In this document: piece after piece, positions 24,797-29,617 of the stretch
How the letters are laid out: each line of letters begins with the position of its first letter
How positions within the stretch are numbered: position 1 is the first letter of the stretch
Assembly: GCF_001428545.1 (NCBI RefSeq)
Contig: NZ_LMHZ01000001.1
Location: 248,961-312,960 of the forward strand
Reading direction: 5' to 3'
Origin: Noviherbaspirillum sp. Root189
GTDB taxonomy: Bacteria > Pseudomonadota > Gammaproteobacteria > Burkholderiales > Burkholderiaceae_D
DNA: 64,000 nt
Notes under the pieces: generated by a model
What the model saw: only the letters and a program-made list of their open reading frames with translations
Told to the model about the DNA's origin: nothing
Databases searched by the model: none
Translations under genes and position numbers: made by a program

Positions 24797-25395
24797 AAGT
24801 CATCAGTGTTAATGTCGGCGCCATCGGCGACTTGTTCGTTCGGCCATCGGAACACATGAAGGAACCGGTGCGGCGCATCGCCACCGGAATGCACAAGCGG
24901 CCAGTCGGTGGCGCTGTCCGGGTGAACCGGCTTGGTCTCGACGGTGATGAACAGGCGGACCCTACTGTGCACGGCGGCATCAATAAGGCCGTGTATGCCT
25001 ATCCGTCCGAGCATTACGGCTTCTGGATTGCGCAGCGTCTCGCGGCACTGAAGCGTGAAGAGCCGCTGCCGCCCGGCGCGATGGGAGAAAATCTCACGCT
25101 GCAGGGTTTGCTGGAAAAGGATCTCTGGATCGGCGACCGGCTGCGCATCGGCACCGTGCTGCTGGAAGTGACGGAACCGCGCCAGCCCTGCTTCAAGTTC
25201 AATGCAAAGATGGGCTTTAGCCACGCGGCAAAGATGATGGTGCAGGCCGGCAATAGCGGCTTTTACCTGCGTGTGATTGAACCGGGAGCGATTGCGGCCG
25301 GCGATGCGATCGTGCTGAGCGCCGGCCCGCGTGAGACTTCCATTGTGCAAATCAACGAAAGGCGTCTGAAGGGGCGCCAGCGGGATTTGTTCTGA
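24793..25395 (+). CDS. MOSC domain protein (YiiM-like)
   Basis: A 200-residue MOSC (molybdenum cofactor sulfurase C-terminal) protein. It starts MKVISVNVGAIGD at the ATGA overlap with the MFS stop. Visible motifs: GLDGDEQADPTVHGGINKAVYAYP, the MGENLTLQG block and TEPRQPCFKFNAKMG, in which the conserved cysteine of the family sits. Characterised relatives include YiiM, linked to reduction of N-hydroxylated base analogues. Coupling with an efflux transporter suggests detoxification of an N-hydroxylated or oxidised compound; this is inference. Confidence 0.9.
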   Translation: MKVISVNVGAIGDLFVRPSEHMKEPVRRIATGMHKRPVGGAVRVNRLGLDGDEQADPTVHGGINKAVYAYPSEHYGFWIAQRLAALKREEPLPPGAMGENLTLQGLLEKDLWIGDRLRIGTVLLEVTEPRQPCFKFNAKMGFSHAAKMMVQAGNSGFYLRVIEPGAIAAGDAIVLSAGPRETSIVQINERRLKGRQRDLF

Positions 25396-26110
25396 CGCTG
25401 CTGCGCACCAGCGTACTTCCACCGGTCCACAGGCGTGTCCAGCCAGGTGGCCAAGGCAGCGGCGGTCCCGCATATGGCGGCACGCCACGTCGTACCGGGA
25501 TCACCGGCAGGTGCTCGGGTACCGGTCCATCGCGATAATCCCAGCCTAGCGTGTACGCATAATTTGGCAGCAAGGCTTCGCACACCGCATCGAACCATGC
25601 GGTGTGGTCTTCATCGCGCTTCAACGCCTGTGCGAGACCATGCGGATCGAATTGCGCAAATGCGTTCACCAGTTCCTTGGACGTGGCGCCCGGCTGGTCA
25701 CCCCAGCCGAGTATCGGGTTGAAGTTGTAATCCGCACCGGATCCGTACCAGCCTTCGCGCCATGCACGATCCATCCAGTTGCGCTGTCCGGTGAACAGGT
25801 GCCAGCGCCAGTGCAGGCCCGATGGTTTCGGCCAGCTGTACAAATATAAGCGTTGATAGCCGGCGCGATGCAGTTCGCGCACCATGGCCATCAGCCGCGC
25901 GTGCGGCATGCGGTCTGGCGGATCACGCCGGAAATGGATCGGCTCGCCATCGGCGTGCTGCAGCTCGTCATGGGAAAGATTCAGGTCGAGTGTGCGCACC
26001 TCGTCGCCGAAACGGGCCGAAATCCAGCCGGTCAGCAGATTGACCGACGTGATAACGCCATAGCCTCGGTGACGGTGAAAAATGACGGTGCCGGGTGCAA
26101 CAGGTTTCAT
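25352..26110 (-). CDS. Conserved hypothetical protein (252 aa)
   Basis: I do not recognise the family. The first ~60 residues look like a small SH3-like beta domain (GTVIFHRHRGYGVITSV, then GWISARFGDEVRTLDL), similar to a CarD/Tudor-type fold that could contact nucleic acid or protein; the resemblance is only by pattern. The middle is rich in tryptophan and tyrosine (YLYSWPKPSGLHWRWHLF), and the C-terminus is proline-rich. The gene is convergent with the MOSC gene and the two coding regions overlap by 44 bases at their 3' ends. The start ATG 26110 has no strong ribosome site. Confidence 0.68.
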   Translation of the reverse strand: MKPVAPGTVIFHRHRGYGVITSVNLLTGWISARFGDEVRTLDLNLSHDELQHADGEPIHFRRDPPDRMPHARLMAMVRELHRAGYQRLYLYSWPKPSGLHWRWHLFTGQRNWMDRAWREGWYGSGADYNFNPILGWGDQPGATSKELVNAFAQFDPHGLAQALKRDEDHTAWFDAVCEALLPNYAYTLGWDYRDGPVPEHLPVIPVRRGVPPYAGPPLPWPPGWTRLWTGGSTLVRSSVRTNPAGAPSDAFR

Positions 26111-26477: not shown

Positions 26478-29084
26478 ATGAGTGATTCAGCGCCCTTACC
26501 CATCGACACATTTCTTCCCTACATGCGCGACGTCGTTCGCTGCGAGCAATCGCTGCGCGAACTGAACCTCATGTGGCGCATGATTGAAGCTTCCGCCAAA
26601 ATGAACTGTCCGGTCGAAGCGAAAACCATCCTGCCGACCATGGCCGCGACCCGCGCCGGCTTCAATCGCCTCGAACAGGAACTGGTTACCAGCCTGGTCA
26701 CCGAAAAAGTCGGCAACGTGCTCGACGAGATTGGCACCAAGGCGCAGTACGTGATCGACATCGTGGTGCGCAACCTGTACGAGCGCACCGCCGATGTCGG
26801 CTTCCTTGCCACCGACCGCGAACTCTGTGCATTTGTCGCCGGCATGCACGACGACGCCGACGCGATTCGATTGCGCCTGCGCGCTTACCGCAACAAATAC
26901 ACCGTCTACGACGAGATTATCCTGCTCGACACCGAAGGCAACGTGCTGGTCCAGATCGATGAATCGTCACCGCTGGAAGGCAGCACCGATCCGTTGATCC
27001 GTCAGACGCTCATGGCGGAAGGTTATGTCGAAACCTTCCGTGCGACCGACTTGCGGCCGCTGAAAAAACAGGCATTGATTTACTCGCGCCGCATGCTGCA
27101 TTCGGACACCGGCGTCGCGGTCGGCGTGCTGTGCCTGTGCTTCCATTTCGAGGAAGAACTGGCCGGGATTTTCGATTCACATCGTGATGCCGACGAGCGC
27201 GCCAACATGCTGCTGCTCGATGGGAACAACCAGGTGATCGCCAGCGCCGACGAACTGTGGATTCCGGTTGGCGCCACCGTGCCGGTCAATCGCTCGGCAA
27301 GTCCGCGCCTGATGGTCTACGGCGGCCGCGAATACCTGGTACGCACCATCAGCGCCGAAGCTTATCAGGGCTACATGGGACCGCCGGGCTGGCAGGGCCA
27401 GGTCATGATCCCGGTGGATGTCGCCTTCCATGGCAGCAGCAGCAATGCGCTTGCCTCGCTCGACCCGAGCGTCGCCGACGGGTTGCTGTCACATGCCCGC
27501 TCCTTCTGCCCGCCGCTGTTCGAAATCATGACCGCGGCCGATACCATCCGACGCGTGGTCTGGAACGGCCAGGTGATGACCGCCGGCCAGCACGGGGAAC
27601 TGCTCAAGCTGAAGACCATTCTCGACCAGATCAGCGAGACCGGCATGCGCAGCAACGAGCTGTTTTCGCAATCGATCCGCGACCTCTATGAAACGGTGCT
27701 GGCATCGAGCCTGCGCGATTCGGAATTCGTGTCTCACTTGCTGGTCGATTTGCTTGACCGGAATCTGTACGAGCGTTCGGACGACTGCCGCTGGTGGGCA
27801 TTGACGCCGGAACTGCGCAATGCGCTGGCATCGGAAGAAAAGGATCACGAAGCCATCGCCAGCATCACCGCCATCCTCGCCTACATCAACCGGCTCTATA
27901 CCGTCTACACCCGCATTTTCGTGTACGACAGCGAAGGCCGCATCATTGCCAGCACCAATCCGATGGAAGACGGCGTCCCGGTGATCGGCACGATGATCGA
28001 TGCGACCACCCTGAGCAGCGTCATGGCCTTGCGCAGCGAACAGGATTACTACGTATCGCCGTTCGCGCCCACCCCGCTGTACGGTAACCGGCCGACCTAC
28101 ATCTATCATGCGGCGATCCGTGATCCGCATCGCGAATCCACGGTGGTTGGCGGCATCGGCATCGTGTTCGATTCCGAGCCGGAATTTTCCGCCATGCTGC
28201 GCGGCGCACTGGCTGACAAGAGCGACATGACCGCGCTCTTCATCGATCGCAGCGGACGCGTGATCTCCAGTACCGACCCGACACGGCCGGTCGGCGCGCA
28301 GCTCGACATCGACCCGAAACTGCTGGCTGCGGCCAACGGCAGCAGTGCATCGCGCATCGTCATCCATGACGACCATTACGCGATCATGGGGTGCACGGTG
28401 TCCAACGGCTACCGCGAATTCAAGGTATCCGACGGCTACAGGGAAGACGTGCTGGCCGTGGTCTTTGATACCTTTGGCGAAGTACGCGAACGCAGTTCCG
28501 CAGTCAACCGCGAAGATACGGTACTGGAAACCGATGTCACCGCCAGCGGCGGCACCGAGTATGCAAGCTTCTTCATCGACGGCATGCTGCTCGCCCTCCC
28601 CGCCGCACACGTGCTGGAAGCCTTGCCGGCATCGGAAGTGTCACCGGTCTCGATGGGCGGCCGGCCCGAGCGTGTCGGCGTGCTGGCGCTGCAGCGCTAC
28701 GGCGAGAACCGGCAGTTCGTCTGGGTGTTCGATCTGCGCCACCTGATGCGCGGCGCACCTGCGCATATCGAAAACAGCAGTCAGGTCATCATCGTTCGTC
28801 ATGACGGGCAGGACATCGGACTGCTGGTCGATGAACTGCATGGCGTGCCGGAATTTCAGGCATCCCAGATCAAGCCCACCCCGTTTGCCGGCAATGCCGA
28901 CGGCTTGCTGGTCAAGCAAGTGATCCAGGCCAACGGAGGCCGCCTGCTGATTCAGGCGCTGGATGTGGCACAGCTGTATGCGTGCCTGAAAGACCCCAGC
29001 CTGCCTACCGTATTAAACGTCACTGACGTGAATCGCCTGACCGACATGGCGTTCGACGCAGATTTATTGGAGAAAGCAGCATGA
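26478..29084 (+). CDS. Soluble duplicated-sensor protein with C-terminal CheW domain
   Basis: About 868 residues with no signal peptide or membrane helix. It appears built as two tandem sensor modules followed by CheW. Each module starts with a helix ending RNLYER(T/S) (about residues 95 and 425) and later carries a PAS/Cache-like strand pair, EIILLDTEGNVLVQIDE in the first and RIFVYDSEGRIIASTNP in the second. The two copies are about 329 residues apart. The last ~150 residues read EYASFFIDGMLLALPAAHVLEAL, RVGVLALQRY, FVWVFDLRHLM and LLVDELHGVPEF, the CheW pattern. It should couple a cytosolic signal to a chemotaxis-type kinase, but none is in the window. It overlaps the next gene by four bases (ATGA). 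Confidence 0.75.
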   Translation: MSDSAPLPIDTFLPYMRDVVRCEQSLRELNLMWRMIEASAKMNCPVEAKTILPTMAATRAGFNRLEQELVTSLVTEKVGNVLDEIGTKAQYVIDIVVRNLYERTADVGFLATDRELCAFVAGMHDDADAIRLRLRAYRNKYTVYDEIILLDTEGNVLVQIDESSPLEGSTDPLIRQTLMAEGYVETFRATDLRPLKKQALIYSRRMLHSDTGVAVGVLCLCFHFEEELAGIFDSHRDADERANMLLLDGNNQVIASADELWIPVGATVPVNRSASPRLMVYGGREYLVRTISAEAYQGYMGPPGWQGQVMIPVDVAFHGSSSNALASLDPSVADGLLSHARSFCPPLFEIMTAADTIRRVVWNGQVMTAGQHGELLKLKTILDQISETGMRSNELFSQSIRDLYETVLASSLRDSEFVSHLLVDLLDRNLYERSDDCRWWALTPELRNALASEEKDHEAIASITAILAYINRLYTVYTRIFVYDSEGRIIASTNPMEDGVPVIGTMIDATTLSSVMALRSEQDYYVSPFAPTPLYGNRPTYIYHAAIRDPHRESTVVGGIGIVFDSEPEFSAMLRGALADKSDMTALFIDRSGRVISSTDPTRPVGAQLDIDPKLLAAANGSSASRIVIHDDHYAIMGCTVSNGYREFKVSDGYREDVLAVVFDTFGEVRERSSAVNREDTVLETDVTASGGTEYASFFIDGMLLALPAAHVLEALPASEVSPVSMGGRPERVGVLALQRYGENRQFVWVFDLRHLMRGAPAHIENSSQVIIVRHDGQDIGLLVDELHGVPEFQASQIKPTPFAGNADGLLVKQVIQANGGRLLIQALDVAQLYACLKDPSLPTVLNVTDVNRLTDMAFDADLLEKAA

Positions 29085-29617
29085 ACGCGATTGACAGTTT
29101 TTTATTGGGCGACAGTGCCTTGTACGCACGCCTTTGCATGACGACCGAAGTGCTTGGCCAGTTCGTGTCGTGCGCGCCGCGTTCCCTCACTCTTGACCAG
29201 CTGGAGCGGCTGACGCGCATGCCGGTCAAGGACTTGCTGAAACTGTGCGTGACGCTGTGCCGCGAACAGGTATTGCGTCCGCATCCCGAACAGCCGCAAT
29301 GCTGGGTGCTGGCCTGCGAAACCAGCGAACTGACGCTGGAAGATGCGTTCCGCTGCGTCGTGTCCGAACAATCCGAGCGCACCCGCGCCGCGAAACGCCG
29401 GGCACTGGCGGACGCGCCACTGGCCGATACCGTCCATCGCGAAGTCGACATGCTGGTCATGCAGGCCACGATGGGAATCAACCAGAGCGTGTTCCAGCAC
29501 CTGCGACAGTTTTCGCTCGACCGGCTGAAGATGACAGCGGCCGGCATGTTTCCCGCACGCCGCAGCAACGATGACGCATTGCGCGGGTGGCCGCCGACCC
29601 GGCTGTCGTTTTCCTGA
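29081..29617 (+). CDS. Rrf2-like winged-helix protein (178 aa)
   Basis: Starts at the ATGA overlap with the CheW-linked sensor gene, so the two are translated together. Residues ~35-95 (SLTLDQLERLTRMPVKDLLKLCVTLC, then QVLRPHPEQPQCWVLACETSELTLEDAF) match the winged-helix pattern of Rrf2 regulators, including the wing and the following SELTLEDAF helix. The three-cysteine cluster of Fe-S Rrf2 proteins (IscR, NsrR) is not present in its usual place, although scattered cysteines occur. The C-terminal 70 residues are helical and unassigned. A DNA-binding or adaptor partner of the sensor is the likely role. Confidence 0.65.
   Translation: MNAIDSFLLGDSALYARLCMTTEVLGQFVSCAPRSLTLDQLERLTRMPVKDLLKLCVTLCREQVLRPHPEQPQCWVLACETSELTLEDAFRCVVSEQSERTRAAKRRALADAPLADTVHREVDMLVMQATMGINQSVFQHLRQFSLDRLKMTAAGMFPARRSNDDALRGWPPTRLSFS

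Follow-up and report, generated by a model that had tools for sequence, protein, structure and literature searches.

A soluble protein with two cytosolic Cache modules and a built-in CheW domain in Noviherbaspirillum sp. Root189: a candidate input to chemosensory arrays

The 64,000-nucleotide stretch of Noviherbaspirillum sp. Root189 DNA analysed here (the window) contains a gene for an 868-residue protein in which two sensor modules are followed by a CheW domain, and a second, overlapping gene for a small protein with a predicted winged helix (Table 1). Translation of the sensor-CheW gene probably starts at the ATG at 26478, because the alignments of many relatives begin at residue 1. The original prediction, made from the sequence, had described tandem modules with RNLYER motifs about 329 residues apart. 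The motifs start at residues 98 and 428, 330 apart, and the duplication is confirmed by alignment, shuffling and profile comparison: the two modules align with each other over 325 residues at 23% identity, with a score of 173 against 63 for the best of 500 shuffles, and match at a profile-profile E of 5.2e-19.

Table 1. Coordinates in the window of the two genes and of the parts of the sensor-CheW protein.
Feature	Position	Strand	Description and basis
Sensor-sensor-CheW protein	26478..29084	+	868 aa, soluble; Pfam, hydropathy, AlphaFold2 model
Module 1 helical hairpin	26502..26810	+	Residues 9-111, predicted break at residue 44; AlphaFold2 secondary structure
Module 1 cytosolic dCache	26769..27413	+	Residues 98-312, RNLYER at start; weak Pfam dCache_1, hhalign, Foldseek (whole model)
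Module 2 helical hairpin	27510..27800	+	Residues 345-441, predicted break at residues 369-373; AlphaFold2 model
Module 2 cytosolic dCache	27759..28481	+	Residues 428-668, RNLYER at start; Pfam dCache_1 best stretch 440-599, hhalign
CheW domain	28554..28991	+	Residues 693-838, ~5-residue insertion replacing canonical N-x-R-G; Pfam, model, Foldseek
Winged-helix protein	29081..29617	+	178 aa, weakly Rrf2/IscR-like, genus-specific neighbour; model, Foldseek, neighbourhood comparison
ATGA overlap	29081..29084	+	Start of second gene, stop of first; -3 offset in 6/6 named loci with the pair

Domain databases and structure prediction both recover double Cache (dCache) and CheW folds. The whole protein matches the Pfam family dCache_1 at 49 bits (cut-off 45), and module 1 alone matches it weakly (E 5.6e-5). 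The AlphaFold2 model, built with 34 relatives, has a mean predicted local distance difference test score (pLDDT) of 79.8 and a predicted template-modelling score (pTM) of 0.67, and its domains run in the order helical hairpin, double Cache, helical hairpin, double Cache, CheW. Foldseek matches the model to the solved dCache sensors DctB, Tlp3 and PctA, with their double PAS-like fold. Sensors of the dCache type are usually extracytoplasmic and lie between two membrane helices, a placement that this protein does not share, given that a hydrophobic segment is absent. The protein is soluble as originally described: no membrane segment was found in its 868 residues, the best 19-residue Kyte-Doolittle mean being only 1.59 and located in the CheW domain. 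The signalling domain of methyl-accepting chemotaxis proteins (MCP; PF00015) and a CheR-like domain binding S-adenosylmethionine (SAM) were likewise sought with Pfam, and neither matches the protein at E up to 1.

The C-terminal CheW domain, also part of the original description, is matched by Pfam PF01584 at residues 695-833 (58.3 bits against a cut-off of 23.5, E 8.3e-16), and Foldseek aligns this part with the CheW structure 2ch4 (E 5.8e-8, target TM-score 0.82). A complete two-subdomain SH3-like fold is present in the predicted model, as judged from its strands and from comparison with the CheW structures 2ch4 and 2qdl (target TM-score 0.74-0.85). The domain also aligns over its full length with solved CheW. 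In FrzB, the lack of 20 residues (beta4-beta5) is described as preventing CheA binding (PMC6952110); no such loss of the CheA-binding strands is seen here.

The architecture is shared by all relatives retrieved from named genomes, where two modules and CheW are found in 80 of 80 loci (confirmed by tblastn). These loci are the best 80 of 99 relatives, and the query was the protein itself, so that the figure is in part a result of construction; in the 80, the gene at L052 is truncated within CheW where its contig ends, and at L084 the open frame includes only part of the N-terminus. By title, the genomes are mainly Oxalobacteraceae, with Comamonadaceae, Methylophilaceae and relatives of Thiobacillus and Sulfuriferula. 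Within the window's own family, a match at E 1e-3 is obtained in 63 of 195 genomes; in 57 of them it reaches 1e-120 or better, and in 6 it is weak and via CheW only. All 30 of the family loci that were fetched encode two modules and CheW. Few genomes outside the family have the double form. A class sample gives 4 matching genomes of 274 over most of the length, the Root189 genome included, and 2 of the 4 lack CheW; a phylum sample gives two modules in 6 of 398 genomes, and one double-module CheW protein (in G832) lies outside the class. Phage records hold no match at E 0.001, and a phage origin of the gene was set aside on that result.

The same sensor module occurs in a second kind of protein. 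A search of plasmid records with the sensor-CheW protein gives 9 matches, and the 4 that have a named feature are annotated as methyl-accepting chemotaxis protein. The six plasmid loci examined all encode soluble proteins of 307-377 residues, with an MCP tip followed by a single Cache module of the RNLYER type. These proteins, called mini-chemoreceptors here, have about 350 residues, are soluble, and combine an N-terminal MCP tip with a single cytosolic dCache, without CheW. Their tips score above the Pfam MCPsignal cut-off in 8 of 8 single-module proteins tested (3 from plasmids, 5 from the phylum sample), and their Cache aligns with module 2 at an hhalign E of 5.5e-27 and with module 1 at 5.1e-18.

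A profile of the module alone was used on the phylum sample, an even sampling of Pseudomonadota that is less biased than the named-genome search, and 35 of its 398 genomes match at the limit of E 1e-15. Thirty of the 35 became loci: 26 have a single module with an MCP tip, 4 have two modules with CheW, and none is mixed. Outside these 30, G650 has the double form with CheW and G839 a double form in which CheW is undetectable; three further matches (G805, G694 and G735) were left out of the architecture counts. Among all loci examined, no double-module protein carries an MCP tip, and CheW accompanies a single module only in four genes truncated at the edge of their locus (L119-L122) and in one half of a split gene (L158). 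When the mini-chemoreceptor profile is used on the window's family, the best among the matches listed are double proteins and ordinary MCP tips. One sensor family therefore seems to reach chemosensory arrays by two alternative routes, one through a receptor tip and the other through a CheW of its own. Near one mini-chemoreceptor gene there is, by eye, a CheA-like gene (L221, 3-2324 and 2761-3825), a possible genomic link of the sensor family to a chemosensory kinase. Membership of MtpA from Methylobacterium in this family was considered and is not confirmed, as the available text on it describes an MCP domain alone (PMC10613068).

An unrooted tree, built from 83 modules of 55 chosen loci, puts module 1, module 2 and the single modules into separate groups, with support of 100/99, 100/100 and 94/98, values for which the bootstrap is not fully settled. 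The tree needs 2 label changes in all, the minimum possible. Because the three groups are separate, the tree fits one old tandem duplication that would have given rise to the double proteins before they spread. Two double-Cache relatives terminate ahead of the CheW domain (L154, 6378-8402; L155, 6240-8366), and their modules fall within the module 2 group, which suggests that CheW was lost later in these two.

A helical hairpin opens each module at the position that the MCP tip has in a mini-chemoreceptor. The possibility that the hairpins are hidden MCP tips was examined, given that their breaks lie near the tip position and that some residues look alike by eye, but comparison with an MCP-tip profile gives no significant likeness (E 0.12 and 0.025; 7 and 1 of 100 column shuffles equal the score). 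The likeness is not visible by eye in divergent relatives, and it was dropped as evidence.

Family genomes that carry the gene also match a domain of the chemosensory kinase CheA. The CheA dimerisation domain is matched in 57 of the 57 family genomes with the gene, versus 117 of 138 without it; in these counts and those for flagellin below, five absences (1 for CheA, 4 for flagellin) were assigned by elimination. The protein is probably, at roughly 60%, a cytosolic chemosensory input that enters the CheA/CheW array via its own CheW domain. The uniform architecture of the 80 named loci and the CheA domain match in all 57 genomes support the original prediction of a duplicated sensor that is soluble, joined to CheW and plausibly docked on an array. 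The two non-equivalent dCache modules would respond to a small molecule or metabolic state inside the cell, and the C-terminal CheW would place the protein in the CheA/CheW ring. A ligand-driven movement of the sensor pair could then alter CheA activity, such that a separate MCP would be unnecessary. In the simplest origin, the sensor unit of a mini-chemoreceptor would have been duplicated in tandem and its coupling shifted from an MCP tip to a fused CheW.

Several observations weigh against array docking through CheW. Conservation is lowest in the CheW part, with a mean column identity of 59% (13 chosen rows) compared with 80% and 72% for the modules (12 chosen rows each). The canonical CheW carries an N-x-R-G turn; the present protein has an insertion of about 5 residues in its place, and the pattern is absent in all 34 relatives (the 34-row alignment excludes L073, which has a stop within its range). 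Since the CheW part changes fast and lacks N-x-R-G, docking may be non-standard. Likewise, the sensor pair may function without CheW, given that the domain is missing from L154 and L155 and undetectable at the C-terminus of a further double-module relative, L229. Two of the 57 genomes, G068 and G090, have a weak CheA match only, and when weak matches are counted as absent, the figures become 55 of 57 and 102 of 138 (Fisher p 1e-4, uncorrected for relatedness, with strong and weak split at 1e-13, a value set after seeing the list). The gene in G068 is split into two overlapping frames (L158, 4626-7066), and that in G090 runs off its contig. In neighbourhoods inspected by eye no CheA gene adjoins the sensor-CheW gene; an MCP-like gene is seen about 4.5 kb from it at one locus (L160). 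On the turn itself, however, 7 of 10 other CheW-like domains aligned from the Root189 genome also lack R-G at that place, so that N-x-R-G does not define the family.

How the protein might be arranged in an array allows a more specific proposal, which is put forward tentatively and as clearly less probable than array input as such. With its two asymmetric modules, the single chain would be a natural pseudo-dimer that imitates a receptor homodimer of two chains: the two hairpins form a four-helix bundle, the sensors stand side by side, and the attached CheW replaces the MCP tip. Receptor and coupling protein would then be a single molecule, which enters the ring instead of CheW. If so, one sensor family would have evolved two interchangeable plugs for the same array.

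It is rather unlikely that the protein instead modulates array structure. FrzB is described as a divergent CheW that acts in this manner (PMC6952110), and a CheW part of similar function would bind tips or rings without activating CheA, while the sensor pair sets the size or position of the array. The rapid change of the CheW part and the insertion in place of N-x-R-G would be in keeping with this proposal; FrzB, however, lacks beta4-beta5, whereas the domain described here aligns over its full length with solved CheW.

A role in a non-flagellar chemosensory system, similar to those of type IV pili or with an alternative function, rather than in swimming chemotaxis is less probable still. The Root189 genome has 13 CheW-domain matches at several places and 3 CheA dimerisation-domain matches, and the gene is an orphan, all of which would suit such a system. 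Flagellin, however, is found in 56 of the 57 family genomes with the gene versus 115 of 138 without it. A single case also speaks against a non-flagellar role: within one genus (g41), the gene is split in the genome with a weak CheA match (G068) and whole in one with strong matches (G041).

The second gene was originally said to share ATGA with the sensor-CheW gene, and this overlap is present. Its product was called Rrf2-like, a description of which the winged helix and a top fold match to IscR remain, with weak support, while no Rrf2 family model matches. No family model scores above its cut-off (none in Pfam, and in NCBIfam a sub-cut-off match to another family). The model of the protein, from 7 sequences, has a mean pLDDT of 73.4 and a pTM of 0.52. 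IscR is the sole Foldseek match of this model under E 0.001 (E 5.8e-4, target TM-score 0.47); the next matches, at about E 0.01, are to an Rrf2-family protein, a ZBP1 domain, CymR and MarR-type proteins. Across all 7 copies that were aligned the protein is conserved, and the C-terminal half more strongly than the rest.

The original prediction also suggested that the two genes could be a signalling module linking the array to gene expression, with both proteins acting together to couple it to transcription. The constant overlap and the conservation of the second protein would favour such a system, but the pair is present in only 6 of the 80 named loci (L009-L012, L033 and L085), always with ATGA and in the window's genus alone, and in 4 of the 30 fetched family loci, again all of that genus. 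One of the six, L012, bears the title Herbaspirillum sp., but has a match equal to that of G151, a genome of the window's genus. Five of the 80 named loci end within 550 bases of the sensor gene, so that the pair is not fully visible there. When the flanks of 118 loci are scanned with a profile of the second protein, no additional copy turns up. The adjacency is thus not unique to this genome, though confined to one genus. The second gene is one of six paralogues in the Root189 genome, and 25 of the 195 family genomes match it. Around each of the five others, a sensor-CheW gene is absent from the 12-18 kb examined; one of these five is 84% identical and lies on another contig with no sensor gene nearby. 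Relatives of the second gene also occur at the same site, with the same neighbours, where the sensor-CheW gene is absent (L135, L136, L141 and L142). A two-gene system is therefore very unlikely and was rejected on the adjacency and paralogue data; the adjacency is a local arrangement.

Among the copies of the second-gene family (29081-29617 of the window; L129, 8658-9191; L130, L131, L132, L133, L137-L139 and L143), several adjoin amino-acid genes by eye, with LivK-type binding proteins, PutA, DadA and alanine racemase among the neighbours. This hints that the family comprises local regulators of amino-acid use. On the other side of the sensor-CheW gene, a divergent gene at 25352-26110 of the window (MKPVAPGTVIFHRHRGYGV...) flanks the site in many family genomes, whether the sensor gene is present or absent. 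The place of the second gene behind the sensor-CheW gene is taken by an asparaginase-like gene (161 aa; L014 8723-9205 and similar) at most of the loci examined from Herminiimonas, Herbaspirillum and Oxalicibacterium. The 64,000-nucleotide window contains no RNA element at Rfam gathering scores.

CheW is usually regarded as a passive linker. If the sensor-CheW protein does enter arrays as proposed, it would represent one more lineage whose CheW is itself the bearer of the sensor, common in the window's family and scattered through other beta-proteobacteria. The same sensor domain is found on an MCP tip in other species, a natural comparison by which the requirements that an array places on its receptors could be tested. 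Given that this Cache sensor is soluble, ligand binding could be followed without a membrane. No protein that joins Cache to CheW is named in the titles and abstract openings of the literature covered; it may be among the 30 architectures of Fig. S10 in PMC10653840.

The nearest characterised protein is CheWS from Treponema denticola, of which the present protein may be a Cache-based counterpart. Binding of SAM and interaction with CheA are described for CheWS, which has also been modelled in the ring; the available text of its report terms it the first reported characterised CheW-fused chemotaxis sensor and leaves 30 further CheW architectures undescribed (PMC10653840). Both proteins are soluble and CheW-fused, and both would bring a cytosolic signal to the array, but CheWS is a spirochete protein with a C-terminal, CheR-like SAM sensor (PMC10653840), whereas the protein described here has two N-terminal dCache modules and comes from Pseudomonadota. 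The sensors differ in fold and origin, and only that of the present protein has a sibling family on MCP tips. The CheW-CZB proteins also join CheW to a cytosolic sensor domain, in their case the zinc-binding CZB rather than dCache (PMC8262984). In CheV, as described, the CheW domain is joined to a phosphorylatable receiver domain and not to a sensor (PMC12691637). Single-chain chemoreceptors, both the engineered Tsr~Tsr and natural soluble single-chain MCP domains, similarly have two receptor units per chain, but they retain the MCP tip, and the available text describes no fused CheW (PMC4692393). The mini-chemoreceptors have the same dCache family with its RNLYER motif, and differ in having one module and an N-terminal MCP tip in place of two modules and CheW.

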